Positions 3,430-17,556 of a DNA stretch of 27,090 nucleotides are shown here, piece by piece. The DNA lies in IMG/VR virus record IMGVR_UViG_3300034190_002297, positions 1-27,090 of that record; one strand, 5' to 3'. The stretch comes from a virus. Both the position numbers and the translations under genes were made by a program. The notes under the pieces are model-generated. The model saw nothing but the letters and a program-made list of their open reading frames with translations, was not told where the DNA came from and did not search any database. How positions within the stretch are numbered: position 1 is the first letter of the stretch; each line of letters opens with the position of its first letter.

Positions 3430-3455
3430 TGTGAAATGACTTTGACGCGCAAGTA
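3430..3455 (+). repeat. 26-base direct repeat, copy A
   Basis: The copy begins TGTGAAATGA and ends TGACGCGCAAGTA. Copy B at 3737-3762 matches at 24 of 26 bases. Both copies contain the 11-base word TGACGCGCAAG. The pair flanks the 64-aa gene at 3520-3714. Confidence 0.8.
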
Positions 3456-3519
3456 TTTTTTTGGTAACTAACTCACACTTAGTTTTTTAGTTATATCCAA
3501 CCACAAGAAAGTTTAACGA

Positions 3520-3714
3520 ATGGCAATATTTACAACCAATGAGGCAGAGCAAATTAATCAAACTATTAACCACGCAGTAGAACTAGCAAACAAGCACTCT
3601 ACTACTTACTGTGTTGTTTACATTGATAAATTTAAGACCACCATACCCATGAGAGCAGAACCCTGCCCGTCTGAGTTCGGTTGGCAAATAGTCATGAAGA
3701 TAACCCCAGACTAA
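3520..3714 (+). CDS. Hypothetical protein (64 aa) in a repeat-flanked cassette
   Basis: The product starts MAIFTTNEAEQINQTINHAV and has a helical N-terminal half followed by a strand-rich part (TTYCVVYIDKFKTTIPM). I do not recognise the family. The ribosome site is weak (AAGAAAG about eight bases before the ATG). The gene stands alone: it follows the dyad operators and repeat copy A, and is followed by an 18-base palindrome, repeat copy B and a strong terminator, so it is a monocistronic unit. An inverted repeat AACTAA/TTAGTT lies at about 3467-3484 in its leader. A small regulator is plausible but unproven. Confidence 0.55.
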   Translation: MAIFTTNEAEQINQTINHAVELANKHSTTYCVVYIDKFKTTIPMRAEPCPSEFGWQIVMKITPD

Positions 3715-3715
3715 C

Positions 3716-3733
3716 TTGTTAGCATACTAACAA
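3716..3733. promoter_or_regulatory. 18-base palindrome after the 64-aa gene
   Basis: TTGTTAG, CATA and CTAACAA form a perfect dyad starting two bases after the stop codon. There is no T-tract, so it is more like an operator or an mRNA-end hairpin than a terminator. The terminator proper follows at 3765. Confidence 0.6.
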
Positions 3734-3736
3734 TGC

Positions 3737-3762
3737 TGTGAAATGAGTCTGACGCGCAAGTA
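3737..3762 (+). repeat. 26-base direct repeat, copy B
   Basis: This is the partner of copy A (3430-3455), with two substitutions, both in the short segment between the conserved TGTGAAATGA and TGACGCGCAAGTA blocks. It lies directly between the palindrome at 3716 and the terminator at 3765. Confidence 0.8.
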
Positions 3763-3764
3763 AG

Positions 3765-3790
3765 AAGCCCTCTGTTTTAGGGGGCTTTTT
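3765..3790 (+). terminator. Rho-independent terminator of the 64-aa gene
   Basis: AAGCCCTC, a seven-base loop and GGGGGCTT form an 8-bp stem with one wobble, ending in a run of five T (3786-3790). It separates the 64-aa unit from the integrase operon. Confidence 0.85.
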
Positions 3791-3819
3791 CATATTTAAA
3801 TCCCTTTGAATTATTTTAG

Positions 3820-3848
3820 TTGACACTCTGCAAGGTGGCGGGTTAGGT
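3820..3848 (+). promoter_or_regulatory. Probable sigma-70 promoter of the integrase operon
   Basis: A consensus -35, TTGACA (3820-3825), is followed after 17 bases by TTAGGT (3843-3848), a weak -10. It lies after a terminator and about 40 bases ahead of the first gene of the operon. AAGGTGGCG lies in the spacer. Confidence 0.5.
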
Positions 3849-3890
3849 GTTCAACACTACCAACCACAATCACATGGAAAGCGACCACAA

Positions 3891-4220
3891 ATGCAAGCAG
3901 TTATAAATCTAAAACAGCGTATGCTAAATAAGAGCATCATCGATGCCAACGCCAGTGTCAGGAAGTTTCTGGCTGAAGAGACTGTCCTCTCGTATGATAA
4001 TATCCCAGTGGGCGGCAAGAATGGCGTACACATTCCAGCCTTGTTTCCAGACGGCACGAAGACAAAAATACACTTCTACCGCCGTCCTCGCGGTGATCGT
4101 CATCTTTGGATTAAAAAACTAGCCAAACACGCCAAAGACGGTGACATCATTACCATCAGCCGCGCCACTGGAAGTATCTGCAATCAATACCTTCAGATTG
4201 GAATCGAGGCGGCGGCATGA
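3891..4220 (+). CDS. Hypothetical protein upstream of integrase (109 aa)
   Basis: This is the first gene of the plus-strand operon. GGAAAG lies about eleven bases before the ATG. Readable segments include PDGTKTKIHFYRRPRGDRHLWIKK and AKDGDIITISRATG. The alternation of basic and aromatic residues would suit a nucleic-acid-binding protein, but I do not recognise a domain. Its last codons overlap the integrase start (ATGA at 4217), so the two are translationally coupled. An excisionase-like role is conceivable from position alone; no winged-helix or AlpA-type motif is visible. Confidence 0.6.
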   Translation: MQAVINLKQRMLNKSIIDANASVRKFLAEETVLSYDNIPVGGKNGVHIPALFPDGTKTKIHFYRRPRGDRHLWIKKLAKHAKDGDIITISRATGSICNQYLQIGIEAAA

Positions 4221-5320
4221 ATAAGCATCCTTATGTCCAAAGGTCCGAGACACGGGGGAAGTGGAAGGTCCACTTGCCTCGCGCAGTCCGGCAAGCCGTT
4301 GTAGGTGCTAAGTCTGGTACATACACTAGTAAGCAAGACGCCATAGATTATGCAGCCGAAGTACACTCAGCCTACACGTCATTCAGACAAGGCGAGTTAA
4401 CTGCGATAAACATCTCAGACCGGTCAGTCGCTGGTCTGATCAATCAATACCGGCAGACTAATAAGTACAAAACTCTCGCGGTAAGCAGTAAGCGGAATTA
4501 CAACCACTACTTCAATACCGCACTGCCTATTTGTATTGGCAATTCCAATACTGCCTTCAGGGACATGCTCACTGCCAACGTCACGGTCAAACACGCTGAG
4601 AAGTTGCAACAGCAAGTCGAGCAGTTGGTCAGTTACACCACATCATTCCAAGTGATAAACAAACTGTCGGTAGTCTGGAACCGTGGTATCAAGCTAGGTC
4701 TGGCTAGGTCTAATCCCTTCGCTGAGATGGGTCTGTCTAAACCACCGCCCCGCCGCCAGAAATGGACTGATGAGCAGTTTGCCGACTTCATAGCACACTG
4801 CGACAAGGTTGGTGGTTCTGGTCTGGTTAATCCGAAAGACAGTTGGTCTACAGTAGGCACTCACGTAATCCTGTGTATGCACTTAGCCCAACGTGCGGGT
4901 GATATGCGTACTCTTACATGGTCAAATTTAAATGACAGCGGCCTTCTGACGTTTACTCAGAAGAAAACCGGAAAGGTAATGGTCATGCCTATTACACAGT
5001 TAATTGAGGCTAGACTAAGATTACACCCACACGCCGCACATACTGATAACATCCTGCGCAATCCTAATACTAATGAGCCTTACACCGCCGACAACCTACG
5101 CCGCAGGTTTAGAACGCTGGCACGGGAAATGGGTCTGCCAGATGATATACAGGTGATGGATGCACGTAGAACAGCGGCTACCAATGCAGCCAATGCCGGA
5201 GCCACAGAAGCAGAGATCATGGCTCTGACCGGCCACACACGCCCTGAGACGCTACGGGAAATATACCAACTACGCACGGTAAAGCAACTGAACAACCTCA
5301 ACAGTAAGCGAGGTCTATGA
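4217..5320 (+). CDS. int: Phage tyrosine integrase
   Basis: This 367-aa tyrosine recombinase catalyses site-specific strand exchange between phage and host attachment sites. The N-terminal half (about 1-170) is the arm/core-binding region. The catalytic domain shows Arg226 in AQRAGDMRTLTW, a beta-hairpin Lys in QKKTGKV, Arg317 in MDARRTAAT, His340 in LTGHTRPE and nucleophile Tyr350 in REIYQL. The usual first His of box II (HxLR) is Met314 here; substitutions at that position are known in phage integrases. The gene overlaps both neighbours by four bases (ATGA). A candidate attachment site, the tRNA-Asp 3' half at 7539-7579, lies 2.2 kb downstream rather than next to the gene. Confidence 0.93.
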   Translation: MNKHPYVQRSETRGKWKVHLPRAVRQAVVGAKSGTYTSKQDAIDYAAEVHSAYTSFRQGELTAINISDRSVAGLINQYRQTNKYKTLAVSSKRNYNHYFNTALPICIGNSNTAFRDMLTANVTVKHAEKLQQQVEQLVSYTTSFQVINKLSVVWNRGIKLGLARSNPFAEMGLSKPPPRRQKWTDEQFADFIAHCDKVGGSGLVNPKDSWSTVGTHVILCMHLAQRAGDMRTLTWSNLNDSGLLTFTQKKTGKVMVMPITQLIEARLRLHPHAAHTDNILRNPNTNEPYTADNLRRRFRTLAREMGLPDDIQVMDARRTAATNAANAGATEAEIMALTGHTRPETLREIYQLRTVKQLNNLNSKRGL

Positions 5321-5547
5321 TGGCTAGGACTATGCGGGTGCCGCTGAAAGATCACATCGAAAAGTTTAAAGTCTTCGTAGTTTTAAATAATAAAGTGGAG
5401 TATCGGCAGATTGGTAAGGTGGCGGGTACTCGCCATCAACTGCCACACAAACAGTTGGCGTCCTTGCAACTCGGTGATATATGGTGGCCTAGACACGACT
5501 ATCAAACGCCACCTAACGCCCGACATGGGTATGAGAGGATAGTATGA
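5317..5547 (+). CDS. Hypothetical protein (76 aa)
   Basis: The ATG overlaps the integrase stop (ATGA), and the gene ends overlapping the next start in the same way, so it sits inside a coupled operon. The product, MMARTMRVPLKDHIEKFKVF onward, is basic with a WWPRHDY segment near the C-terminus; there is no membrane segment and I do not recognise the family. An AAACGCCAC word is embedded near its 3' end (5504-5512), 32 bases ahead of the next gene. Small DNA-binding or excisionase-like roles would suit the position but are speculative. Confidence 0.6.
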   Translation: MMARTMRVPLKDHIEKFKVFVVLNNKVEYRQIGKVAGTRHQLPHKQLASLQLGDIWWPRHDYQTPPNARHGYERIV

Positions 5548-5756
5548 CAGACAAGGAATACGGAGAGTGGATGACCAAACTAAAACGGGTCCAGAAGGAG
5601 AATGAAAAATTGCGGCATAACTACGACATACTCAAACGCGAAGCAGACCTCTACGAGAGGCAGGCTAAACGATTTGCCGCGCAGTTAGATCGTGTCGAGA
5701 AGGAACTAGCGCAAGCCAAGGCTGAACTTAAACTTTGGATGGGAACTGGCGTATGA
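5544..5756 (+). CDS. Small coiled-coil protein (70 aa)
   Basis: Almost the whole protein (about residues 8-62) is a charged heptad-type helix, e.g. LKRVQKENEKLRHNYDILKR and LDRVEKELAQAKAELKLW, so an extended coiled-coil dimer is expected. It has four-base overlaps with both neighbours, the previous gene at 5544 and thyX at 5753. No catalytic motif or hydrophobic membrane segment is present. Such small coiled-coil phage proteins often act as partners or scaffolds; no specific function can be assigned from sequence. Confidence 0.65.
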   Translation: MTDKEYGEWMTKLKRVQKENEKLRHNYDILKREADLYERQAKRFAAQLDRVEKELAQAKAELKLWMGTGV

Positions 5757-6439
5757 CTAGTATAACAGCAACCCTGCTAGATTGCATGGGCAGCGATATG
5801 ACCACTGTGAATGCGGCTAGAGTGTCGTACAACCGCGAGAGCGAGGCCTTGGGTGCCTCTGGTGTTGAGGGTAGCCCTATGCTGCCTATACTCAATGACG
5901 GCGATAAAAGGCTGATAGGCTATCTGGCAACTAACCGTCACACCAGCCCATTTGGACATGCCTTTGCCAGTTTTTTATGCGAGGCTCCGATCTACGTGTG
6001 TAGGCAGATGGTCAAGCATCGGTTTCTCAGAATAAACGAAGTATCAAGAAGATATATTTCTGATGATCCGGAGTTTTATTATCCACCTCATTATCGGGCG
6101 GTTGCCAAAAATAAAAAGCAAGGCAGTGGTGGGCGAGTAGGTGATGTCGAAGGGAATGCGGCTATAGCAAACGTCACCAAGCACAATGCTAGGTCCATGA
6201 TGGAGTACCGCAATCTTCTATCGGCAGGCATCTGCGAGGAACAGGCTCGTTCTGTGCTACCTCTCAGCATGATGACCAAATGGTGGTGGTCTGGAAGCCT
6301 AGACGCCTTCGCAGACATGTGCCGCCTGCGCTGCGCTCCTGACGCGCAAGAAGAAAGTCGGATACTGGCTATGCAGATCAGTGTCGAAATGGTAAAACGC
6401 TACCCAGTAAGTTGGGCCGCTCTAAGAGGAATACACTAA
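5753..6439 (+). CDS. thyX: Flavin-dependent thymidylate synthase
   Basis: ThyX makes dTMP from dUMP using methylene-tetrahydrofolate, FAD and NADPH. This 228-aa protein has the family order: RVSYNRES near 23-30, RHTSPFGH at 62-69, then the signature KHRFLRINEVS at 88-98, matching RHRx7S with a conservative Lys for the first Arg. I chose the ATG at 5753, which overlaps the previous stop (ATGA), over the frame's ATG at 5735, because the family N-terminus begins near there. It fits with the class II ribonucleotide reductase and MazG-like gene downstream as phage-encoded dNTP supply. One TGACGCGCAAG word lies inside it (6340-6350). Confidence 0.95.
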   Translation: MTSITATLLDCMGSDMTTVNAARVSYNRESEALGASGVEGSPMLPILNDGDKRLIGYLATNRHTSPFGHAFASFLCEAPIYVCRQMVKHRFLRINEVSRRYISDDPEFYYPPHYRAVAKNKKQGSGGRVGDVEGNAAIANVTKHNARSMMEYRNLLSAGICEEQARSVLPLSMMTKWWWSGSLDAFADMCRLRCAPDAQEESRILAMQISVEMVKRYPVSWAALRGIH

Positions 6440-6534
6440 TGAAAAAACCAACCACAATTTATATACCCAGCAAGAAGACACACGATCTGCTTGCCAGCAT
6501 GTTAGCAAAGCCAATTAAGAAGGGAGCCAAGTAA
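6439..6534 (+). CDS. Small basic protein (31 aa)
   Basis: ATG at 6439 overlaps the thyX stop (TAATG) and its own TAA overlaps the next ATG (TAATG). An AGAGGA ribosome site lies about eight bases upstream. The product starts MKKPTTIYIPSKKTHDLLAS and ends KPIKKGAK; it is strongly basic with no hydrophobic segment. The double stop-start coupling and a proper ribosome site make it a likely real gene despite its size. Function is unknown. Confidence 0.6.
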   Translation: MKKPTTIYIPSKKTHDLLASMLAKPIKKGAK

Positions 6535-6794
6535 TGGCTGATTGGAAACCCGCACTGACCCCAGAGCAAGCCAAGCCTCAGAACGATATAGAGGCTCTCA
6601 CATTAGCCTTACATCTTGCTCTGACCGCCCCAACGGATGAGCAATCCCAGAAAGCAGTGAAACTGGCTAATGAACTATCTAGCAGGCTGACCAAAGAACA
6701 AGTCGATGCAGTCATTGCGGCCTTATCCAAGGACAACCCCTGCATCGTTTACACAGACAAAGCAGAACTGGAAGTGGAGAGGGCTGATGTCTGA
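6534..6794 (+). CDS. Hypothetical protein with KDNP-IVYTD motif (86 aa)
   Basis: AAGGGAG precedes the ATG by seven bases, and TAATG couples the gene to the 31-aa gene. The N-terminal two thirds are helical (NDIEALTLALHLALTAP). The C-terminal part has IAALSKDNPCIVYTD (residues 61-75), which recurs in the 67-aa protein at 8772-8975 as IAALAKDNPAIVYTD; the underlying DNA is also similar. A duplicated or shared C-terminal module between two otherwise different small proteins is therefore visible. Function is unknown. It overlaps the next gene by eight bases. Confidence 0.7.
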   Translation: MADWKPALTPEQAKPQNDIEALTLALHLALTAPTDEQSQKAVKLANELSSRLTKEQVDAVIAALSKDNPCIVYTDKAELEVERADV

Positions 6795-7041
6795 CGTTAG
6801 TACAGGATGTAATTTTACCTTTGCACGTAATCCAAATCTCACACAGAACCCTACCGCTAAGACAGAGATAAAAGCCTTGGTAACTCCCTCGCTTAAAATA
6901 GAATATGCTAATCAAACCGACAAGCAAATATTTCTTGAAGGCGTGATCTGTGATGCTGGATGGGACTTGAGCCTTACAGATCGTCCCGCGCAATGGGATC
7001 GTGTCATTGGATGGCTTGAAGAGGAGATGTCTGATGACTAA
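6787..7041 (+). CDS. Hypothetical protein (84 aa)
   Basis: The start is placed at the ATG at 6787, preceded by GGAGAGGG. The frame is open further upstream (6706), but that would lie deep in the previous gene. The product begins MSDVSTGCNFTFARNPN and ends with an acidic, tryptophan-bearing tail (QWDRVIGWLEEEMSDD). No recognised domain. It has eight-base overlaps on both sides, within a run of very small coupled genes between thyX and the attachment region. Such genes commonly encode host-takeover or anti-defence proteins in phages; that is context, not evidence. Confidence 0.6.
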   Translation: MSDVSTGCNFTFARNPNLTQNPTAKTEIKALVTPSLKIEYANQTDKQIFLEGVICDAGWDLSLTDRPAQWDRVIGWLEEEMSDD

Positions 7042-7249
7042 CAAGGAAACAATAATTGCAGCCCTAACGGAAGCACGTAGAACCAGCACAAATAATGTCG
7101 ATATGATAGCTGCAGCGACCTATGCCTTGAATATAGATTTTTTCGAAGCGTTTGATGTCAAATCAAGTGCAGATGCGACAGAAATCGTAGCGGGTATCTT
7201 GTATGAGCATACAGCGGGTCTAGTTTTTGAGGAGCAAGCTAATGGATAA
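7034..7249 (+). CDS. Hypothetical protein (71 aa)
   Basis: The start is taken at ATG 7034 (MTNKETIIAALTEARRTSTN), with GAGGAG eight bases upstream, rather than the frame's 7001 opening. The protein is acidic and helical, ending HTAGLVFEEQANG, and I recognise no motif. It overlaps the previous gene by eight bases and the next by eight, continuing the coupled small-gene run. Function is unknown. Confidence 0.6.
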   Translation: MTNKETIIAALTEARRTSTNNVDMIAAATYALNIDFFEAFDVKSSADATEIVAGILYEHTAGLVFEEQANG

Positions 7250-7391
7250 ACTTACGCACGATGAAACACTACTTCTATTAGACGCACTTAGTTCAGTGCT
7301 TCCGGATAACTTCTCCTCTGCGCAGATGCAGAAACGTGCTGAACGTAAATTAAAACGCTGGTTAGATCACAAGGATATAGAATTTACCTGA
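7242..7391 (+). CDS. Small hypothetical protein (49 aa)
   Basis: ATG at 7242 overlaps the previous gene by eight bases, with GAGGAG seven bases upstream. The product, MDKLTHDETLLLLDALSSVL onward, is amphipathic, with a basic C-terminal helix (KRAERKLKRWLDHKD). It is the last gene before the 350-base attachment region, and its transcript would end at the terminator at 7474. No family recognised. Confidence 0.6.
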   Translation: MDKLTHDETLLLLDALSSVLPDNFSSAQMQKRAERKLKRWLDHKDIEFT

Positions 7392-7448
7392 TGGTGATTC
7401 GTATCTCAGAAGCAGGCGGTTAAACAGTTGAAGTTTTTTTAATCATTT

Positions 7449-7468
7449 GCCACAAACAGCCACAAACA
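7449..7468 (+). repeat. Tandem repeat GCCACAAACA x2
   Basis: Two perfect head-to-tail copies lie at 7449-7458 and 7459-7468, about 70-90 bases from the tRNA-like core. Tandem short repeats at this distance are typical of integrase arm-binding sites, which is the inference here. Confidence 0.6.
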
Positions 7469-7473
7469 CAAAA

Positions 7474-7500
7474 ACGGACCTTTTTACGGGTCCGTTTTTT
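7474..7500 (+). terminator. Rho-independent terminator of the int/thyX operon
   Basis: ACGGACC (7474-7480), an eight-base loop and GGTCCGT (7489-7495) are followed by six T (7495-7500). The stem is perfect. A preceding A-run would let it also work weakly from the opposite strand. Confidence 0.88.
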
Positions 7501-7507
7501 AGTATTT

Positions 7508-7527
7508 AGCCCTTAAAAACAAGGGCT
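7508..7527. other. Second hairpin, AGCCCTT/AAGGGCT
   Basis: This is a perfect 7-bp stem with a six-base A-rich loop, between the terminator and the tRNA-like core. It has no T-tract. It may be part of the attachment site architecture or a terminator remnant. Confidence 0.5.
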
Positions 7528-7538
7528 TGGTATTTAGT

Positions 7539-7579
7539 TGGCGCGGTTGACGGGGCTTGAACCCGCGACCTCCGGCGTG
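7539..7579 (-). other. Candidate attP core: 3' half of tRNA-Asp(GTC)
   Basis: Read on the minus strand, these 41 bases run from the CAC of the anticodon loop through a GCCGG half-stem, AGGTC variable loop, T-arm GCGGG-TTCAAGC-CCCGT, an acceptor 3' strand and terminal CCA. That is the 3' half of a tRNA-Asp of alphaproteobacterial type. The 5' half (D-arm, acceptor 5' strand) is absent, so it is not a functional tRNA gene. Temperate phages often carry exactly this as attP, restoring the host tRNA on integration. Confidence 0.75.
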
Positions 7580-7743
7580 TTGGGTTAACATTTAAGAACA
7601 ATAGGTTACACCGCTATGTTGTGGAGAACCCGTTATCTAGGTGGCGTTTTTAGGGGTTTACTATTTAATTTTTGTGTATAGGCTTACGCCTGTCCCTTGG
7701 GGGGCAGGAATAGTACACTACTAATATTAGACATAGGCTACTC

Positions 7744-8502
7744 ATGTTATATCTAGAGCAACTAGAAGTAATCCTAGACATTCCCCTTAAAGAAGGGGAC
7801 CGCAAAGTAATCCAATGTCCATTCTGCCATGGCCTAAAAAAACTAAGTCTATCCAAAGAACAAGGCATAATCCGGTGGAATTGCTTTAGAGCATCTTGCG
7901 AAGGTAAAGGAATACACTCAGGCAGACGTAATCTACAAGCGACTAAGGCGTACCTAGCCAACTCCTCTAATGTTCCTGCCAAGTACATACGTCCACTACC
8001 ATCCCTGACAACGTCCGTAGACAACCACCAGCCAGCCATCGACTACCTAGCCTCGGTGAACAGCCTTCAAGCGCATGAGAGAGGCTATTTGCGGATAAGG
8101 TATGCTCCGGCTGAGAACCGAGTACTCTTCTGTCATGGACATGGTGCCGTTGGACGTGCGCTTGGCGGTGGACCTAAGTGGATGTCTTACGGAGAGTTGC
8201 CGCATGGTATACCTGTAGGTAATGGGCAGACTGCTGTGTTAGTAGAGGATGTAGCTAGTGCCTGTTCAGTCAGTCGTGATGATAACCTAACTGGTATAGC
8301 CCTTTTAGGTACGCACTTAACAAGTGGCATAAAAAAAATAATAAAAAACTACAACAAAGTGTATTTAGTCCTTGACAAGGATGCCGCAATAAAGGGTATA
8401 AAAGAGTCGCGTAGGAACTCTGGTGTTTTAGTTAGATTTACTTCTACTGATCTTAAATACCAGACTACTGCGCAGATAGAAGACACACTCAACAGCCTAT
8501 AA
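7744..8502 (+). CDS. Phage DNA primase (zinc finger + TOPRIM)
   Basis: This 252-aa primase lays RNA primers for phage replication. The zinc ribbon uses Cys25/Cys28 (QCPFCHG) and Cys47/Cys52 (WNCFRASC). The TOPRIM half has the conserved Glu168 in VLVEDVASA and the Asp pair D211/D213 in LVLDKDAA. It has no fused helicase, unlike T7 gp4; the separate helicase is the 403-aa protein at 9087. The ribosome site is weak (AGG about eight bases before the ATG). It is the first gene after the attachment region and starts the replication module. Confidence 0.9.
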   Translation: MLYLEQLEVILDIPLKEGDRKVIQCPFCHGLKKLSLSKEQGIIRWNCFRASCEGKGIHSGRRNLQATKAYLANSSNVPAKYIRPLPSLTTSVDNHQPAIDYLASVNSLQAHERGYLRIRYAPAENRVLFCHGHGAVGRALGGGPKWMSYGELPHGIPVGNGQTAVLVEDVASACSVSRDDNLTGIALLGTHLTSGIKKIIKNYNKVYLVLDKDAAIKGIKESRRNSGVLVRFTSTDLKYQTTAQIEDTLNSL

Positions 8503-8511
8503 GGAACGGGC

Positions 8512-8691
8512 ATGAATTGGTTAGAAACAGAAAAAGTATATGACTTTGGATGGCTAAAGTCTGGCGGCAAAGGTAGCTTGATGCGCAGGATATTATCATC
8601 CATGATGCAGATTAGCACTTATGCTCTCGGTGGTGGATTGTATGTCAGCGCATCAAGCTGGCAAGACGCGCCAACCGCGCCACCACAATAA
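8512..8691 (+). CDS. Small hypothetical protein (59 aa)
   Basis: ATG at 8512 has AAGGA six bases upstream and lies nine bases after the primase stop. The product begins MNWLETEKVYDFGWLKSGGK, has a mildly hydrophobic middle (MMQISTYALGGGLYVSAS) that could be one short membrane helix, and ends in a proline-rich tail (QDAPTAPPQ). It looks like a virion-associated or membrane micro-protein, but no family is recognised. Confidence 0.55.
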   Translation: MNWLETEKVYDFGWLKSGGKGSLMRRILSSMMQISTYALGGGLYVSASSWQDAPTAPPQ

Positions 8692-8771
8692 TTAATTTAA
8701 AATTTGCACTTTTTAATCGCGCAGTATAGATGCCGCGCAAGACCTAATTTTAATTGAAAGACCCCTATACC

Positions 8772-8975
8772 ATGAAAGCAAGAGCAATCATAATTGTTGA
8801 TTTTCAAATCGACGGCGGCTTCAGCGAAGCGGCTGCACAAGAACAAAAAGTGAAGGATGCCATTGCGGCGTTAGCCAAGGATAATCCTGCCATCGTCTAT
8901 ACCGACATGGAAATGAAGGAGCGTCGCGGTGACGGCAAACCGGACGTGGCTCGGATGAAGTTCCGTACCTCATAA
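8772..8975 (+). CDS. Hypothetical protein with KDNP-IVYTD motif (67 aa)
   Basis: I prefer the ATG at 8772 (MKARAIIIVDFQIDGG) over the TTG-opened frame at 8754. The first 15 residues form a beta-strand, then a helix leads to IAALAKDNPAIVYTD (residues 31-45) and a charged, conserved-looking tail MKERRGDGKPDVARMKFRTS. The IAAL-x-KDNP-x-IVYTD block is shared with the 86-aa protein at 6534, on the other side of the attachment site. It is monocistronic, with a terminator at 9009. No function is known to me. Confidence 0.68.
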   Translation: MKARAIIIVDFQIDGGFSEAAAQEQKVKDAIAALAKDNPAIVYTDMEMKERRGDGKPDVARMKFRTS

Positions 8976-9008
8976 GTATATAACTACAAACTAACTGCTA
9001 ATTAAATC

Positions 9009-9033
9009 AGCCTCCTTAATCGGGGGCTTTTTT
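9009..9033 (+). terminator. Rho-independent terminator
   Basis: AGCCTCC, TTAATC and GGGGGCT form a 7-bp stem with one wobble, followed by six T (9028-9033). It ends transcripts of the 67-aa gene and separates it from the helicase gene, implying a promoter in the 50 bases that follow. Confidence 0.85.
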
Positions 9034-9086
9034 ATTGTCCAACTGTGTGGTATAAACGCCACCTTAGACCCACATGAGGACCACAC

Positions 9087-10298
9087 ATGTACCAATCACT
9101 AATTAAGTGCTGTTTGAATAATGAATTTTATTCAGACAATCAGGCTAGGCTAAGAGCCAGCCTCTTCGATGACACTGCTAGAGAAGTCTACAAAGCCATA
9201 GCCGCCAGCCATAGTAAATTTGCCAAGGACATTTCCCCTACAGATTTGATGGCGCAATGGAGAGCGGCTAATCCCTCGTCTACCGCTGCTTGGACCGCTG
9301 AAATTGATGATACTATAAATCACATTGCTGCAGCACCCGACATCGATCAGGAAATTGCTGCAGACGTTATAGCCAACCTTTGGCGGCAGTCAGTTGGTTT
9401 AGACATAGCCAACCTTGGTATTCTTATGTCTGAAGGCCAGACCAATGCTATGGACGATTTAAAGGCACTCCTAGACAAAGTGTCTAACGGTTATATGCCT
9501 GATGATTTCCCAGAGCCAAACGCACAAGACATATATGAGATGCTGGCGGTTGTGAGCAACGACAATCGTTTTAAATTTAATATCCAATCTGTGAGCAATC
9601 GTGTTTATGGGATTGGTCGCGGCGAGTTTATGATAGCTGCTGCTTATACTAACGTAGGCAAAACAGCATTTGGTGCGTCTTTGTCGGCGGCTCCGGCAGG
9701 TTTCTGCGAACAAGGTGCGCGGGTGCTGTACGTTTGCACCGAGGAATTAGCCTCTAGAGCAAGGCTTCGTGCCATCCAAGCATATACCAACCTAACTCAA
9801 GACGAAGTGGCCTTGGATATTAAATCAGCTATGGCGAGATATGCAGGCATAAATGATAGGCTACTGTACATAGATGCCCAAGGTTGGGACGTTTCATATT
9901 TGAGTGCTTATATTAATCACATTAGTCCTGACATTGTCATTATCGATATAGCCGATAAAATTGAAGTATCCGGTAAATTTAATGCAGGACATGAACGACT
10001 TAGAGAACTCTACTACCGTCTGCGTGAACTAGCTAAAACACACAATTGTGCGGTGATCGCTACCTCACAAGCCTCTGCAGATGCGGAAGGTAGAAGCAGG
10101 CTCACTATGAGTATGCTGGAAGGCTCTAAGGTTGGTAAGCAGAGTGAGGCAGATTTACTGATTGGTATTGGTAAGACTATCAATGATCAGGACGATGATA
10201 CCACTCGCTACATTAATATTATGAAGAATAAAATTTCTGGTTGGCATGGCCTGATACCTGTTATTTTAGAGGACAAGGTAAATCGCTATGTTGTGTAA
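9087..10298 (+). CDS. DnaB-like replicative helicase
   Basis: This 403-aa protein is a hexameric RecA-fold DNA helicase that would drive the phage fork. The N-terminal domain (about 1-130) is helical, as in DnaB. The ATPase core has Walker A AAYTNVGKTAF with Lys192, a Glu pair in VCTEELASRARLRA, Walker B DIVIIDIADKI with Asp287, and an ATSQASADAEGR sensor-type stretch. The first residue of Walker A is Ala rather than Gly, a tolerated change in phage DnaB-like proteins. An AAACGCCAC word lies 25 bases before the start. It pairs with the separate primase at 7744. Confidence 0.9.
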   Translation: MYQSLIKCCLNNEFYSDNQARLRASLFDDTAREVYKAIAASHSKFAKDISPTDLMAQWRAANPSSTAAWTAEIDDTINHIAAAPDIDQEIAADVIANLWRQSVGLDIANLGILMSEGQTNAMDDLKALLDKVSNGYMPDDFPEPNAQDIYEMLAVVSNDNRFKFNIQSVSNRVYGIGRGEFMIAAAYTNVGKTAFGASLSAAPAGFCEQGARVLYVCTEELASRARLRAIQAYTNLTQDEVALDIKSAMARYAGINDRLLYIDAQGWDVSYLSAYINHISPDIVIIDIADKIEVSGKFNAGHERLRELYYRLRELAKTHNCAVIATSQASADAEGRSRLTMSMLEGSKVGKQSEADLLIGIGKTINDQDDDTTRYINIMKNKISGWHGLIPVILEDKVNRYVV

Positions 10299-10443
10299 TA
10301 TGGAAAGTAAACTGCCGCTTTCCTTGGAATTATTCATACAGGCAATGGGCATCCTCAAACTAGAGGATGATACCCCTGCTCCTATTGTCAGCATTGAGCC
10401 AAGAGTGACCGTGTTGGACGCAGACGGGGAGCCTGACTTTTGA
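10288..10443 (+). CDS. Small hypothetical protein (51 aa)
   Basis: ATG at 10288 overlaps the helicase end by 11 bases and has AAGGT eight bases upstream; an in-frame ATG at 10300 is the alternative. The product begins MLCNMESKLPLSLELFIQAM and is acidic at the C-terminus (LDADGEPDF). Its TGA overlaps the TTG start of the polymerase (TTGA), so it couples helicase and polymerase translation. A small polymerase- or helicase-associated factor is possible; no motif supports it. Confidence 0.6.
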   Translation: MLCNMESKLPLSLELFIQAMGILKLEDDTPAPIVSIEPRVTVLDADGEPDF

Positions 10444-12602
10444 GTGATATACTTGTTTTAGATTTGGAAACCACTGTTGAACGAATAGCAGGCCGAATAG
10501 ATAATAGTCCGTATAATCCAAGTAACCGGATCGTATCAGCGCACTTCGGCTGGCTGGGTTGGGATGATGTGGATGACTATCATCATGCAGTTTACCATCA
10601 CATTGAGCAGTCACAATCGGACAGTACAGAGTCTCTCCGCGAGGCTCTCCGGAAGGCAAAAGTTCTAGTCTGCCACAACGCCAAATTCGATGTGTCTTGG
10701 CTGTTAGAAGCAGGCTTTGACGTGCCAGAAAAAATCTACTGTACTTTAATCGGGGAGTACCTGCTGTCTAAGGCCCAACGCAGGGATTTATCTCTGAAAG
10801 GTTCAGCGGAACGCAGAGGTCTGCGTAACCAGAAGAAATCAGACTTGATCGATCACTGGTTCCAAGACGGCGTGGATTTCTCTGAGATGCCACTGGCTAC
10901 TATGCTGGAATACGCAGAAGCAGATGTCAGAACCACCGCTGAACTGTACTTAGCGCAGATGGACGATTTTGACGCGCAAGAAAATAAATCTCTCATCACT
11001 GCCCGTGACCAGATGAATGAGATGCTGGTTTTTTTGGTTGAATTAGAGCGAAACGGTTGTTCCATTGATTTAGCCGCCTTGGACACTGTCGAGAAGGAGT
11101 TCCAAGCAGAGAAGGTAGAACTGACTGCCCGTCTGACTGAAATAGTCGAACAGGTTATGGGTGATACGCCAATAAACCTAAATTCTGGAGATGACATGAC
11201 TAAGGTCGTTTACTCCAGAGAGGTGATCGACAAGGCCATTCACAAGCAGACGTGGAACATAGGCACCAATGATGCGGGTAAATCACTTATGCCGCCTAGG
11301 ATGAGTTTGAATCAATTTTCAGACGCCGTCAGGGCTACCACCCGTGTGGTCGAGAAAACACAAGCGGTTTGTTGCTTTGACTGTAATGGATTTGGTTCGA
11401 TACAAAAGTTCAAGGTCAAAACTAAAACTAAGCTGGGCAAGAAGTACCGCATCCAGACCGAAGAGCCATACAAGAATAGGACTAAATGTAAAACTTGCGG
11501 CGGTCTGGGTGCTATCTACCAGCCAACCGGTGAAACCGCCGGTCTGAGAATGATCCCTACCGGACCATCCTACGCCGCTGCCGGTGGATTTAAGACCGAC
11601 AAGGAAACCATCCAGACTTTGATCGGAGTAGCCACACGCAAGAGAAAGCCGGTGGCAGTTGAATTTCTAACCAAATTATCACGCTTATCGGCTGTCTCAG
11701 TTTATCTCGACAGTTTTGTAGCCGGACTTAAAAGAGGTACGCGCAAGAATGGAATACTACATGCAAATTTTAATCAGTGTATTGCTGCTACTGGTAGGCT
11801 GTCTTCTAGCAATCCTAACGCTCAAAACTGGCCCAAGCGAGGGTTCCCTGTACGCAGGGCTATTGTGTCTAGGTTTGATGATGGCCTGCTATTAGAGGCA
11901 GACTATAGTGGGTTGGAATTTAGGACGTGTGTTGAACTTAGTCGTGACGCGCAAGGACTAGCCGACATCCGAGAAGGCAAAGACATCCATCGCCAGACTG
12001 CCTCAATTTGCCTTCAGAAAGACCCAAAGGATGTGACCAAGGATGAACGTCAGGGCCATAAGTGGGCCTCGTTCCAACCCCTTTTCGGCGGCACTGGGGC
12101 AGGAATGGAGCCACATATCAAAGCGTATTTCGGCAAATTCTATGAGATTTATCGTGGCATAGAGGCTTGGCACAATTCTCTGATGACCGGCACTTTAAAG
12201 AACGGTATCGTTCAGACGCCGTCTGGTCGGCAGTACTACTGGCCTAATGTAGTTCGGACTAGAGGCAATAGAGTTAGTCATAGTACGCAGATATTAAATT
12301 ATCCGGTACAAGGGTTTTCTGCCGACATGGTTCAACTAGCGTGTATCCGCGCCTTACGCTTCTTTCGGCAGGCTAGTCTGAGAAGCAAACTTATCCTCAC
12401 TGTGCATGACAGCATAGTCGTAGATACGCACCCTGATGAGGTTGAACAGGTCAAATCCATACTGGTTGAAGCAATGACCCGTATTGATGAGGAGATGGTT
12501 ACACGTTTTGGATACAAGTGCGTAGTACCCTTTGATGTAGAAATTAGCGCAGGCAAAAACTGGCTTGATCAGGAAGAACTATCATTGACAAACGCCACTT
12601 AG
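10440..12602 (+). CDS. Family A DNA polymerase with DnaJ-type zinc insert
   Basis: This 720-aa replicative polymerase has a DnaQ-type 3'-5' exonuclease: Asp8/Glu10 (LVLDLETT), Asp84 (HNAKFD) and Tyr158/Asp162 (YAEAD). The polymerase domain shows motif A DYSGLEFR with Asp488, motif B around Lys541 (GHKWASFQPLFGG) and motif C HDS at 656-658. Between them, at about residues 311-355, lie CFDCNGFG (Cys312, Cys315) and CKTCGGLG (Cys350, Cys353), two CxxCxGxG knuckles like the DnaJ central domain. I recall this architecture from phage HMO-2011 relatives. The start is TTG, coupled to the previous stop, with GGGGAG upstream. Two TGACGCGCAAG words lie inside it. Confidence 0.95.
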   Translation: MSDILVLDLETTVERIAGRIDNSPYNPSNRIVSAHFGWLGWDDVDDYHHAVYHHIEQSQSDSTESLREALRKAKVLVCHNAKFDVSWLLEAGFDVPEKIYCTLIGEYLLSKAQRRDLSLKGSAERRGLRNQKKSDLIDHWFQDGVDFSEMPLATMLEYAEADVRTTAELYLAQMDDFDAQENKSLITARDQMNEMLVFLVELERNGCSIDLAALDTVEKEFQAEKVELTARLTEIVEQVMGDTPINLNSGDDMTKVVYSREVIDKAIHKQTWNIGTNDAGKSLMPPRMSLNQFSDAVRATTRVVEKTQAVCCFDCNGFGSIQKFKVKTKTKLGKKYRIQTEEPYKNRTKCKTCGGLGAIYQPTGETAGLRMIPTGPSYAAAGGFKTDKETIQTLIGVATRKRKPVAVEFLTKLSRLSAVSVYLDSFVAGLKRGTRKNGILHANFNQCIAATGRLSSSNPNAQNWPKRGFPVRRAIVSRFDDGLLLEADYSGLEFRTCVELSRDAQGLADIREGKDIHRQTASICLQKDPKDVTKDERQGHKWASFQPLFGGTGAGMEPHIKAYFGKFYEIYRGIEAWHNSLMTGTLKNGIVQTPSGRQYYWPNVVRTRGNRVSHSTQILNYPVQGFSADMVQLACIRALRFFRQASLRSKLILTVHDSIVVDTHPDEVEQVKSILVEAMTRIDEEMVTRFGYKCVVPFDVEISAGKNWLDQEELSLTNAT

Positions 12603-12614
12603 TTATGGTAAAAT
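12585..12614 (+). promoter_or_regulatory. Sigma-70 promoter ahead of the SSB gene
   Basis: Consensus -35, TTGACA (12585-12590), and TAAAAT (12609-12614) are separated by 18 bases. The pair sits over the 3' end of the polymerase gene. The spacer starts inside an AAACGCCAC word (12590-12598). The predicted transcript would start near 12621, ahead of an AAGGAG ribosome site. Confidence 0.7.
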
Positions 12615-12638
12615 GAATGTTCAAATCAAGGAGACAAA

Positions 12639-13466
12639 ATGTCTGATATAATTCCCGCAGAAGGTGGCCTGACGCCAGATGAATTGGCTGCAATGCTGGG
12701 TGCTGCAGATGCGCCAAAATCGGTTAGAATACCGGCCTTAAAGATCAATTCTCAGGGCGAAGACAAAGACGGCAACCAAATTCCACTGGGTGCATTCTTT
12801 TTAAATACAGAGGAAGAACGTGTCTATGCCAAGGATGGTGTAGTGCTTCATGCTCTATCAAATCACATCCAGTATATGCACTGGGACGATGGTAGGCTAG
12901 TCAACAAGTCCAGACTTATTATTGATAGACGAGAAGAAGCGCGTGATCAACTAGGTGGCACAATGTGCGGTATGCCAACATACGAGCAGTCGGTTCAGAT
13001 GACGCCAGAGCAGCGGAAAGAGTACGAAGGCCGTGATCGCTATCGTGTGGTACGTGGTCTAGTATCATATACAGGCAAGACTGCTTCCGGAGAAGAACGT
13101 ACCATTGAAAATGAGCCGGTGATCCTGTCTCTAAAGCGCAAGAACTATGGGCCGTTCTACCATGATGTAATCAAGCGCATCCCGTCTGATAGTAAGTTCA
13201 TTTATTTTCGTTTGGCTCTTACGGCTGACAAGCAGACCACCGAGAAGGGTGCTAAATATTATGTTATGCGCTTTAGCCCTGATCTGCAGAATAAAATCAC
13301 TCTAGACCAGAAAATGTATGACAGTATGAATGCAGTCGCAGGTATGGTGAAGGCTGAAAATGATCGTATTGATAAATCTTACTTCGATGCGATTGCCCGT
13401 AAAGCAGACGAGGCTGAACAAGACAGAATAATGAAAGAGGTTAACACTCTAGAACACGACTTTTAA
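12639..13466 (+). CDS. Probable ssDNA-binding protein (gp2.5-like role)
   Basis: This 275-aa protein follows the polymerase and precedes a RecE-like exonuclease. It has its own promoter and a strong AAGGAG ribosome site, as expected for an abundant protein. The central part is strand-rich (VRIPALKINSQGEDKDGNQI, RYRVVRGLVSYTG, YYVMRFSPD), compatible with an OB-fold. The C-terminus ends acidic with a terminal Phe (EVNTLEHDF), the tail type of T7 gp2.5 and bacterial SSB. I do not see a named family motif, so the call rests on tail, position and expression signals; a recombination mediator is the main alternative. Confidence 0.55.
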   Translation: MSDIIPAEGGLTPDELAAMLGAADAPKSVRIPALKINSQGEDKDGNQIPLGAFFLNTEEERVYAKDGVVLHALSNHIQYMHWDDGRLVNKSRLIIDRREEARDQLGGTMCGMPTYEQSVQMTPEQRKEYEGRDRYRVVRGLVSYTGKTASGEERTIENEPVILSLKRKNYGPFYHDVIKRIPSDSKFIYFRLALTADKQTTEKGAKYYVMRFSPDLQNKITLDQKMYDSMNAVAGMVKAENDRIDKSYFDAIARKADEAEQDRIMKEVNTLEHDF

Positions 13467-13469
13467 AAA

Positions 13470-14234
13470 GTGGGTGTAATAGAGAATATGACCAATGAGG
13501 ATTATCACGCGACTGCTGATATTTCCTCTACCGTAGTTAAGACTGTATGGAAGAAGTCTCTGGCTCACTGGAAGGGCCAGAAATTCACCTCTACTGCCGC
13601 CCTACTAATAGGTTCGGCACTTCATGGCATACTGCTAGAGCCTCATAGGGAGATAGCGATTAAAGGACCGAAGACCAGACGGTCCAAGGCCTATACTGAG
13701 ATGGAGAGAGACTTAGGTCCGGATCAGGTGCTGCTTACTGAAGGTGAGTGGTACTTAGTCAAAGGGATGACTAAGTCAGCAATGGCTAATCCGGCGTTTC
13801 GGAAGGTGCTTGAGCATCCAGACCGTAAAAACGAAGTGTCAATCTTTGCGGAGTGTCCCAGTACTGGTATTTCCGTAAAAGCGCGGCCTGACTGCATGGT
13901 CAAGGGGGTTGTCTACGATGTTAAATCTACCGTCGACAGTAGTCCATCGGGCTTTGCGAAAGAGTGCTGGAAGTATGCGTATCCAATCCAAGCTGCTTAT
14001 TACTTATACGTCTGCAAGTTGGCTCAAGTTGACGTGGAAGAGTTCTCCTTTTTAGCAATAGAAAAGACGGCTCCATACGTTGCCCACCAGCATGTTGTAG
14101 GTCCAGAGTTAATGGAATGGGCGCATGAACAGGTGCTGGCAACCCTACGCCGTATAGCAGACGCCAAACAGCTAGACGATTACGGCACGGGCTGGGGTGA
14201 CTTTACCCTGCTTGAGAAGCCCAAGTGGCTATAA
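13470..14234 (+). CDS. RecE-like PD-(D/E)XK exonuclease (DUF3799 type)
   Basis: This 254-aa nuclease of the exodeoxyribonuclease VIII/PDDEXK type probably resects DNA ends for phage recombination. Family landmarks are the N-terminal GVIENMTNEDYHATADISS, ALLIGSALHGILLEP, and the active site Asp141 (ARPD) with Asp150-x-Lys152 (YDVKST), then a helix with QAAYYLY. The GTG at 13470 is preferred over ATG 13488 because the family starts with G-V/I-Y-N-x-x-NEDYH; no clear ribosome site is visible for either. It lies three bases after the SSB-like gene and overlaps the next nuclease by ten bases. Confidence 0.82.
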   Translation: MGVIENMTNEDYHATADISSTVVKTVWKKSLAHWKGQKFTSTAALLIGSALHGILLEPHREIAIKGPKTRRSKAYTEMERDLGPDQVLLTEGEWYLVKGMTKSAMANPAFRKVLEHPDRKNEVSIFAECPSTGISVKARPDCMVKGVVYDVKSTVDSSPSGFAKECWKYAYPIQAAYYLYVCKLAQVDVEEFSFLAIEKTAPYVAHQHVVGPELMEWAHEQVLATLRRIADAKQLDDYGTGWGDFTLLEKPKWL

Positions 14235-14578
14235 CGCCGTCCAGTGCCAAGGCTAAAGGGCGCAAACATCAACAATGGGTGCGGGATCAAATTCTCGCAC
14301 TCTTCCCTAAAAAATTGGAAAAAGACGATGTGCGCAGCACCAGCATGGGGTGTGGCGGCGAGGACATCCAACTCAGCCCACTGGCCCGTAGGCTGTTTCC
14401 ATACAGCGTAGAATGCAAGGCAAACAAGGCTTTCGCTATTTACAAGATCATGGAACAGGCCACCGACAACTGCCCAAAAGGTGCCACTCCCTTGGCAATA
14501 ATTAAGGGTGATCGTCAGAAGCCATTGGCGGTGATTGACGCGCAAGAATTTTTCCAACTGACCAAAAAAGGCCGATAA
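14225..14578 (+). CDS. Small PD-(D/E)XK endonuclease, possible junction resolvase
   Basis: This 117-aa protein starts at GTG 14225 inside the end of the exonuclease gene. It begins with a basic patch (AKAKGRKHQQWVRDQI) and has GCGGEDIQLSP with Glu46/Asp47, then VECK with Glu63 and Lys65. That spacing and the downstream EQA helix match short phage PD-(D/E)XK nucleases that act as Holliday-junction resolvases or T7 endonuclease I analogues. It probably resolves replication or recombination intermediates, working with the exonuclease and SSB-like gene. It carries a TGACGCGCAAG word (14536-14546). The substrate is inferred. Confidence 0.75.
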   Translation: MAITPSSAKAKGRKHQQWVRDQILALFPKKLEKDDVRSTSMGCGGEDIQLSPLARRLFPYSVECKANKAFAIYKIMEQATDNCPKGATPLAIIKGDRQKPLAVIDAQEFFQLTKKGR

Positions 14579-15607: not shown

Positions 15608-17504
15608 TAACTACCTACCCACAGACTACCAGACATTCATCGCAACCAGCCGCTACGCACGTTGGCTGGAAGACGAAGGCCGAAGAGAAACGTGGTCTGA
15701 GACAGTGGATCGCTATATGAGTAATATCGTCAATACTTGGCTCAAGCCTGTCGATCAGGCCGACATACGTGATGCAATCCTTTCACTCAGCGTTATGCCT
15801 AGCATGAGGTCGTTGATGTGCGCCGGAGAGGCCAGTAGGCGTGACAATACTTGCATGTATAATTGCTCTTATCTAGCCGTAGATGACCCTAAGTGTTTCG
15901 ACGAGGCTATGTTTATCCTGCTCTGTGGCACTGGTGTCGGATTCTCTGTCGAGCAGCAGTACATCAATCTCCTTCCCGAAGTTCCTGACTTGTCGGAGTG
16001 TGAAACCACAATCGTCGTTAAGGATTCTAAGGAAGGTTGGGCGAAGGCTCTCAGACAAGTTCTAGCACTCCTATGGGCTGGTGAAATACCACAGTGGGAT
16101 GTCTCGCGTGTTCGTCCAGCCGGAGCAAGGCTGAAGACGTTTGGTGGCAGGGCATCTGGACCTGCACCATTGGTTGATCTGTTTAATTTTGCAGTGGCTA
16201 AATTTAAGGGTGCGCAAGGCCGCAAATTGTCCTCTTTGGAATGCCACGACATCATGTGCAAAATTGGAGAGGTGGTTGTGGTCGGCGGTGTTCGACGCAG
16301 TGCCATGATCTCATTGTCTAATTTAGAAGATGACAAGATGCGCCACGCTAAAGCAGGCACCGGTTGGTACGCAACAGAGAGTCAAAGAACTTTAGCAAAT
16401 AATTCAGTTGCTTACACCGAAAAACCCGACATGTCTGCATTCATGCGGGAGTGGGTAAGTCTCATGGAAAGTGGAACAGGTGAACGTGGTATCTTTAACC
16501 GTCAGGCTTGCAAAGATTTGGCAGAAAAATCTGGGCGTAGAAAATCTGACTATGCCTTCGGTTGCAACCCATGTTCGGAGATCAGCTTACGCCCAAACCA
16601 ATTTTGCAACCTTACAGAGGCGGTTATCAGGGCCACAGATACTATTGATGACATCGCGGAAAAGGTCCGACTTGCCACTATACTTGGTACTATCCAATCT
16701 ACATATACCAAGTTCCCTTACTTGCGGAAAATCTGGGCAGACAACACAGAAGAGGAGCGGCTGTTAGGCGTAAGTCTTACCGGTATTATGGACAACCCGC
16801 TGATGACGTTAGCCAATGAAGGTCTGGCTGATACTCTTGAGCATCTCAAACAAATAGCCATTGATACCAATAAAGAATGGTCTGAGAAATTGGGCATTCC
16901 ACAAAGTACAGCCATAAGTTGTGTTAAGCCAAGTGGTACGGTTTCACAATTGTGTGATAGTGCGTCTGGGATACACCCACGGCATTCTCCTTATTACATT
17001 CGTACCGTCAGGGGTGATTCCAAAGACCCTCTAACGAGACTTATGTCTGATCAGGGTATACCAAATGAGCCTTGTGTAAGTAAGGGAGATACAACCGTTG
17101 TATTCTCATTTCCGGTAAAATCTCCGGTAGGAGCAGTCCATACAAAAGACGTGTCTGCCATAGATCAACTAAAACTTTGGTTGGCGTACCAGCGGCATTG
17201 GTGTGAGCATAAACCTTCAATTACATGCAATATTAGGTCGCAGGAATGGTTACAGGTTGGTGCCTTTGTGTATGAGCATTTTGATGAGATGTCCGGAGTG
17301 TCGTTCCTTCCATTCGATGATCACATCTATCAGCAGGCTCCATATCAGGACTGTCAGGCTACTGACTATCACATCCTGCTAGATCAGATGCCCGAAAAAA
17401 TAGATTGGACGAAATTATCCGAATACGAATTAGAGGATACCACGTCTGGGATGCAGACATTAGCCTGTTCCGGAGACGTGTGTGAAATGGTTGATATAAC
17501 CTAA
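15600..17504 (+). CDS. Class II (B12-dependent) ribonucleotide reductase
   Basis: This 634-aa monomeric adenosylcobalamin-dependent reductase converts ribonucleotides to deoxyribonucleotides without oxygen or iron. Redox Cys89 lies in CMYNCSYLAV; the active-site loop NPCSEISL has Cys325 and Glu327, with the partner Cys336 in QFCNL, the same 11-residue spacing as in Lactobacillus RTPR. The C-terminal shuttle pair is Cys623/Cys628 (CSGDVC). It is complete for the family, with no visible gap or intein. It depends on host cobalamin. It overlaps the MazG-like gene and is the last gene of the replication operon. Confidence 0.94.
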   Translation: MNSNYLPTDYQTFIATSRYARWLEDEGRRETWSETVDRYMSNIVNTWLKPVDQADIRDAILSLSVMPSMRSLMCAGEASRRDNTCMYNCSYLAVDDPKCFDEAMFILLCGTGVGFSVEQQYINLLPEVPDLSECETTIVVKDSKEGWAKALRQVLALLWAGEIPQWDVSRVRPAGARLKTFGGRASGPAPLVDLFNFAVAKFKGAQGRKLSSLECHDIMCKIGEVVVVGGVRRSAMISLSNLEDDKMRHAKAGTGWYATESQRTLANNSVAYTEKPDMSAFMREWVSLMESGTGERGIFNRQACKDLAEKSGRRKSDYAFGCNPCSEISLRPNQFCNLTEAVIRATDTIDDIAEKVRLATILGTIQSTYTKFPYLRKIWADNTEEERLLGVSLTGIMDNPLMTLANEGLADTLEHLKQIAIDTNKEWSEKLGIPQSTAISCVKPSGTVSQLCDSASGIHPRHSPYYIRTVRGDSKDPLTRLMSDQGIPNEPCVSKGDTTVVFSFPVKSPVGAVHTKDVSAIDQLKLWLAYQRHWCEHKPSITCNIRSQEWLQVGAFVYEHFDEMSGVSFLPFDDHIYQQAPYQDCQATDYHILLDQMPEKIDWTKLSEYELEDTTSGMQTLACSGDVCEMVDIT

Positions 17505-17505
17505 T

Positions 17506-17556
17506 TTACGTTATGGCGTACAAATCATAAAATTACGTTATGACGTACAAATCATA
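17506..17556. promoter_or_regulatory. Two tandem 24-base dyad repeats (operator-like)
   Basis: Copies at 17506-17529 and 17533-17556 start TTACGTTATG and end CGTACAAATCATA, differing at one base. Each contains a dyad, TACGT-TATG-ACGTA (perfect in copy 2). The 27-base period and position just ahead of the 62-aa gene's ribosome site suggest an operator for a dimeric regulator. Confidence 0.65.

Follow-up and report, generated by a model that had tools for sequence, protein, structure and literature searches.

What does a phage use a short DNA word for when the word recurs across its early and replication genes, always in the same direction? The question is raised by the virus record IMGVR_UViG_3300034190_002297, positions 1 to 27,090 (27,090 nucleotides (nt), analysed at full length and called the window), in which the 11-base word TGACGCGCAAG has six exact copies, at 3443, 3750, 6340, 10970, 11945 and 14536, all on the plus strand and none on the minus strand. 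A recount reproduced these copies as the initial annotation had listed them, and likewise the lack of any copy in the virion half of the window. The repeat is genuine and stronger than first described: it is part of a conserved, lineage-specific, polar element. Most likely, the word is a binding site by which the phage controls the reading of its early genes.

The word is over-represented on one strand

TGACGCGCAAG is the commonest 11-mer of the window. Dinucleotide shuffles of the window gave 0.00 exact and 0.36 one-mismatch matches, and in 200 windows generated with a third-order Markov model the most repeated 11-mer reached two to four copies, never above four. Allowing one mismatch on both strands adds only a site at 8731 (TGCCGCGCAAG), again on the plus strand. 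The length of 11 bases proposed initially overlooked an A at position 13 that is common to all six copies, while position 12 varies (GAA/GTA/GGA). Because N-A comes after TGACGCGCAAG at six of six copies, the extended word is TGACGCGCAAGNA, which is asymmetric, not palindromic, and without copies on the reverse strand of the window.

Two copies are intergenic and lie, as described before, inside 26-base repeats; these are direct repeats, mutually 92% identical. The copies and the features around them are given below, with L007 denoting a relative about 80% identical to the window and ORF an open reading frame.

3430-3455, plus strand: first 26-nt direct repeat, containing word copy 1 (TGACGCGCAAGTA at 3443-3455); a T-run comes next, and the small ORF lies downstream
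3520-3714, plus strand: small ORF of 64 amino acids, the first right-arm gene, with intergenic word copies on both sides
3737-3762, plus strand: second 26-nt direct repeat, containing word copy 2 (TGACGCGCAAGTA at 3750-3762); the small ORF lies before it and the terminator after it
3769-3790, plus strand: intrinsic-terminator-like hairpin with T tail directly after copy 2, a strong hairpin in both the window and L007
3821-3849, plus strand: promoter candidate TTGACA-17 nt-TTAGGT upstream of the 109-amino-acid ORF and the integrase, seen by eye only and not recovered by a consensus promoter scan; L007 has the same TTGACA
3891-4220, plus strand: conserved early protein of 109 amino acids (SIIDAN family), the anchor for locating the element in relatives
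4217-5320, plus strand: tyrosine integrase (Pfam PF00589, E=4.5e-12), its unit preceded by the element
6340-6352, plus strand: word copy 3 (TGACGCGCAAGAA) in thyX (5735-6439), encoding Asp-Ala-Gln-Glu, kept in L007 and L084
8731-8741, plus strand: one-mismatch copy TGCCGCGCAAG, intergenic, with no A at position 13, aligned only in the close relative L002
10970-10982, plus strand: word copy 4 (TGACGCGCAAGAA) in the DNA polymerase gene (10440-12602), encoding Asp-Ala-Gln-Glu
11945-11957, plus strand: word copy 5 (TGACGCGCAAGGA) in the DNA polymerase gene, polymorphic within the clade
14536-14548, plus strand: word copy 6 (TGACGCGCAAGAA) in the RusA-like gene (14225-14578), reading TGACGCGCAAGTA in half of the relatives

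All four coding copies read GAC-GCG-CAA in frame, as the initial annotation noted; the four lie in only three proteins of replication and nucleotide metabolism, one copy each in ThyX and the RusA-like protein and two in DNA polymerase. In 3,000 shuffles of synonymous codons that left the proteins unchanged, there was a mean of 0.07 coding copies and never three or more, against four observed, and shuffling codon order within genes produced at most one; by codon-preserving shuffles and one-mismatch counts on both strands, the word is thus enriched in the window on the plus strand only. An additional 9-base match at 11739 exists, but it is not conserved in the relatives of about 80% identity (L005-L007).

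The word is one lineage's version of a family-wide element

The window belongs to a podovirus of the HMO-2011 type that encodes an integrase and whose family A polymerase has a DnaJ-like insert with two CxxCxGxG motifs (CCFDCNGFG...CKTCGGLG, ORF 10440-12602). A megablast of the window against phage records gave no match. The nearest cultured relatives are the Roseobacter phages CRP-738 (67% polymerase identity), CRP-235, CRP-212 and CRP-3, and the phage is CRP-3-like and probably temperate.

The word itself is missing from relatives whose DNA identity is 70% or less. When all loci were screened for small ORFs flanked by direct repeats, the homologous first right-arm ORF emerged in separate lineages, and every lineage had a repeat of its own: TGACGCGCAAGTA in the window, TCTGACGTGCGAGTA in CRP-235, TTGACGTGCCAGTC in CRP-3, TTCTCGCGCAGGG in L117, CACTTGTTCGCGCAGGGAAATT in the L033 group, CACTTTCCCGCGTGGGGAAATCTT in L126/L147 and GAGTAGTCGCGCAGGGTAAA in L177. 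Such lineage-specific versions in the same orientation (for example TGACGTGCGAGTA, TTGACGTGCCAGTC and TTGTTCGCGCAGGGAAATT) occur among the cultured CRP-3, CRP-235 and CRP-212, where the bracketing pair of CRP-212 is less exact, and among environmental lineages. Where the small ORF is lacking, the corresponding place holds one element (CRP-738, L039, L154, L162) or, in L020, two copies 36 nt apart with nothing between them. In L036, L073 and L063 the element reads TCGCGCAAGTA, intermediate between two element classes, and the version of L147 (class B), TTTCCCGCGTGGGGAAA, is partly palindromic. An alignment of 31 elements yields the consensus T-n3-CGnGY-n-RGKA, in which the CG and one G (three columns) are invariant. 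A T-run follows the first copy in most lineages, and the second copy usually stands between stop codon and terminator. A census of CGCGYRRGGNA placed 65 of 69 matches on the right-arm sense strand, although many come from redundant contigs, the pattern was composed after some members had already been seen, and the strand counts ignore phylogeny. These comparisons show that TGACGCGCAAGNA is the window lineage's version of an asymmetric element of about 13 nt whose location and orientation are conserved among HMO-2011-type phages with an integrase (the CRP-3/CRP-738 kind). The first copy is upstream of the first right-arm gene and, where the small gene is present, a second usually follows directly behind it, before the terminator.

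The copies are conserved within the clade

In L007, five of the six positions hold the exact word and the sixth holds a version with one mismatch (TTACGCGCAAG), all on the plus strand, whereas of all 11-mers only 21.5% are the same in both genomes (binomial p = 0.0023). Copy 1 is intact in L007 though its flanks are only 62% identical; the site of copy 2 reads TTACGCGCAAGTA there. At 6340, 10970 and 14536, GAC GCG CAA stands without synonymous change in all clade members covering these sites, and at 10970 the codons are identical in ten of ten clade sequences. For comparison, fractions of 0.28, 0.11 and 0.20 of comparable triplets are invariant among the divergent relatives used for these three sites. 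The site at 11945 carries the word in eight sequences, GCA for GCG in one and Asp-Ser-Gln (GAT AGC CAA) in six, such that the word is exact in eight of the nine sequences encoding Asp-Ala-Gln; it looks as if the word had been gained or lost here as one unit. In L001, L002, L003, L069 and L078, six clustered base changes at this site give TGATAGCCAAGGGT between nearly identical flanks.

Outside the clade, FEREH, YEKEE and LAREH are the commonest states at the first polymerase site, and DAEH is found at the RusA-like site. As none of the listed outgroup states at these two sites contains Asp-Ala-Gln, the word arrived there together with amino-acid changes. The coding copies are a strong extension of the element, restricted to the clade of the window. 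The initial proposal of a polarised nucleic-acid signal is supported by the enrichment over codon-preserving shuffles, by the same loci and orientation in the relative of about 80% identity, and by the homologous element in distant relatives.

The element precedes integrase-bearing units

Among loci with the 109-amino-acid early gene and enough sequence, the element is found upstream of integrase-bearing units only, in 21 of 31 loci with a downstream integrase versus 0 of 36 without (Fisher 3e-10), a co-occurrence statistic that ignores relatedness. Three of the ten integrase loci lacking the element hold the intermediate form TCGCGCAAGTA, and the named others (CRP-1, CRP-345) have the CRP-1/HMO-2011 organisation. 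No such element was present in the fetched parts of HMO-2011, CRP-1, CRP-207, CRP-345 and HTVC033P.

Arm-type sites such as those of the lambda P and P' arms are short, asymmetric and tied to integrase-bearing phages, and in these respects the element resembles them. CRP-3 inserts into a host tRNA-Met gene (PMC6918029), and the published attL/attR primers (PMC6918029) map to 2829 and 3642 of its genome, flanking a tRNA-like stretch at 3185 beside the primase. In the window, a stretch resembling a tRNA 3' end was seen by eye on the minus strand at 7538-7590 (GGTTCAAGCCCCGTCAACC), beside the primase as in CRP-3, and is probably the core of the phage attachment site (attP); Rfam and tRNA scans of the window found nothing. 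One arm of a 29-nt inverted repeat (7531-7559/8662-8690, 79% complementary) overlaps this candidate, and the other precedes the ORF at 8772. Neither the attP region of CRP-3 nor the candidate attP of the window, which are kilobases from the element, holds a copy of the word, which is therefore not an attachment site or integrase arm site: the copies do not flank the attP core, and the CRP-3 attP at about 3185 is far from the element.

A candidate site for control of early transcription

We tentatively favour, by analogy, an asymmetric site to which a trans-acting factor binds and through which early transcription is controlled in the manner of a stoperator; the mechanism is inferred with moderate confidence. 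A phage-encoded protein (less likely one of the host) would bind the element in DNA and control transcription in one direction. At copy 1 the factor would act on or directly behind the early promoter. At copy 2 it would affect read-through toward the integrase unit, and within genes the coding copies would let it act on elongation along the long early operon, with the outcome that the prophage would stay silent in the lysogen. Copies that are alike within a genome but different between lineages, with position and direction kept, are as expected from one common trans-acting reader. Given the integrase of these phages and the integration of CRP-3, a regulator of lysogeny would be a natural candidate for that reader.

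In cluster A mycobacteriophages such as L5, Bxb1 and TipsytheTRex, stoperators are asymmetric 13-bp sites that are oriented with transcription and differ between immunity groups; there are 20-30 per genome, mostly in promoters and short intergenic spaces (PMC6550527, PMC9283540). Like them, the element of the window measures about 13 bp, lacks dyad symmetry, keeps one orientation, is spread over early and replication genes, is lineage-specific and belongs to an integrase-bearing phage; it is also oriented with transcription, six of six copies lying on the coding strand in the window and 65 of 69 matches in relatives. Stoperators are bound by a cognate monomeric immunity repressor and stop elongation in one orientation, whereas no homologous repressor was recognised among the ORFs scanned here; cluster A is, moreover, a phage group unrelated to that of the window. 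We do not claim membership among the stoperators, because copy number and intragenic position differ and no repressor was recognised.

Several points weigh against control by a DNA-bound factor. The window has six sites in 27 kb, four of them genic and well inside their genes, and each complete genome of CRP-3, CRP-235 and CRP-212 has just the two bracketing copies, with no exact coding copies, in place of 20-30 mostly intergenic sites. Neither a repressor nor a helix-turn-helix protein was recognised among the Pfam-scanned ORFs of the window and CRP-3. At two coding sites the flanks are 92-95% identical, so that coding conservation is partly at the protein level. The limits given above for the pattern census and the integrase statistic count in the same direction, and a signal at the RNA level suits all observations about equally well.

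A wider claim, that this is an independently evolved stoperator-like system of immunity or transcription control, with its own fast-changing polar element and phage factor, whose word was built into the ThyX, DNA polymerase and RusA-like genes in at least one lineage, altering amino acids, is somewhat unlikely to hold in full. Coding copies of this kind would be unusual, a regulatory word overriding protein sequence in replication genes. The paired, lineage-specific element around the first early gene could be used as bait to isolate the regulator, and immunity groups in metagenomes may be predictable from its variants; integrase-bearing HMO-2011-type phages are an abundant marine group.

Alternative explanations

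The main rival is the RNA-level tag suggested initially, which is possible, if on the unlikely side. The word would then act in the transcript as a linear motif, near both the 5' and the 3' end of the first early mRNA and within the messages downstream, where an RNA-binding protein (of phage or host) or a small RNA would bind it. It could serve antitermination at the terminator that follows copy 2, the processing or stability of mRNA, or the control of translation. All copies are in the sense orientation of transcribed genes. Copy 2, like its homologs, stands between stop codon and terminator, and in class-B phages a TATA-like sequence seen by eye about 20 nt upstream of copy 1 would put that copy near the transcript start. 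Lambdoid nut and HK022 put antitermination sites are structured RNA elements, and the element shares with them its polarity, its closeness to an early promoter and terminator and its restriction to the sense strand. It differs in that those sites have conserved boxB or put stems, whereas neither a hairpin search around each copy in the window and L007 nor consensus folding of the class A and the class B elements found a conserved RNA structure; a tag would therefore have to be linear. The minus strand of the window has no antisense partner CTTGCGCGTCA, even with one mismatch allowed, and phages lacking the small ORF (CRP-738, L154) keep the element directly upstream of the next promoter, where it is possibly untranscribed.

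That the paired copies are crossover or insertion sites which move the small first gene, with the coding copies due to chance or secondary, is improbable. Phages with one copy and no small ORF (CRP-738, L039, L154, L162) and the empty pair 36 nt apart in L020 would suit such a cassette boundary. It leaves unexplained, however, the four coding copies with hardly any synonymous change and the strict direction; the known recombination site is elsewhere (CRP-3 attP at about 3185, beside the primase), and gene loss between direct repeats requires no dedicated signal.

We give equally little credit to the view that the intergenic pair alone is a real element and the coding copies are a coincidence of protein sequence or codon usage. 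Relatives do commonly have DxQ at the second polymerase site, and likewise D-[AT]-Q in ThyX, and no exact coding copies were found in the CRP phages; against this stand the fixed-protein shuffles, the invariant codons at three sites among divergent relatives, the replacement of other residues by Asp-Ala-Gln at two, and the A at position 13 shared despite a variable position 12.

A host-derived signal carried by the phage, be it a Chi-like word, an uptake sequence or a site for a host regulator, is less probable still. Chi and DNA uptake sequences are over-represented polar words, and a CGCG core that is shared widely among these phages would fit a host factor that is conserved. The word, however, shows no enrichment in 115 alphaproteobacterial genomes, a sample of the candidate host class: it occurs there at about 1-2 per Mb, on both strands and mostly in 0-10 copies per genome, versus 222 per Mb here. 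Most of the phage group lacks it as well; CRP-738, CRP-235 and CRP-3, from the same host group, have no copy even when one mismatch is allowed. The lineage-specific versions favour a phage-encoded partner over a host factor. The Chi-like and uptake part of the initial interpretation is not supported. A packaging (pac) site is unlikely, because the virion half has no copy and a pac site would not spread over replication genes, and nothing supports a replication-priming site.

Candidate binding proteins and other words

The products of the small ORF form one divergent family whose homologs are bracketed likewise in relatives. An AlphaFold model (predicted local distance difference test (pLDDT) score 85) has an alpha-beta-beta-beta fold; no family was recognised, sequence matches were to uncharacterised phage proteins only, and the PDB held nothing convincing. 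The 109-amino-acid protein, considered as a B3-like DNA-binding protein, had no family, no useful PDB match and a single-sequence model of pLDDT 42. Neither was retained as the binder, because each is missing from some phages that keep the element: the former from CRP-738-like phages, the latter from CRP-3, CRP-235 and CRP-212. A search for proteins common to all element-bearing phages returned, besides core replication genes, the 65-amino-acid gp08 (window 8772-8975) between primase and helicase, which is kept in all element-bearing phages tested, was not found in the fetched parts of HMO-2011 and CRP-1, and gives no sign of DNA binding. A search for prophages of this kind in bacterial genomes found only distant polymerases.

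The pattern AAATGANTNTGACGCGCAAG had two matches in IMG/VR, in unrelated context and judged to be chance. Class-B integrases contain a coding copy (CGCGCAGGGAAA, Arg-Ala-Gly-Lys), but we did not take it to be under selection, since the codons differ in related integrases. Further words are over-represented in relatives (TAGTTGGTTA, TTGGTCCTT and similar); these are mostly ribosome-binding leaders of left-arm genes, unrelated to the element.

Direct repeats CCTGTTAACT bracket the -35 of the promoter behind the element at L033:1106 and 1130, and also in CRP-738, L039 and L162; these repeats of class-B phages look like a separate operator, and the window lacks them. Leader words precede start codons as AACCAACTA..AAGGACCAAT in L019, L036, L045 and L059 (minus-strand genes), and the leader word CCAACCACAA stands at 3500-3515 and 3860-3875 of the window, a ribosome-binding-region signature shared by the phage group. 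The spacings 3750-6340 (2590 nt) and 11945-14536 (2591 nt) are nearly equal, as in L007 (2592 and 2591), which is probably chance. Between the right arm and the virion genes, a 27-nt tandem repeat (93%) lies at 17503-17556, at the ribonucleotide reductase stop codon.

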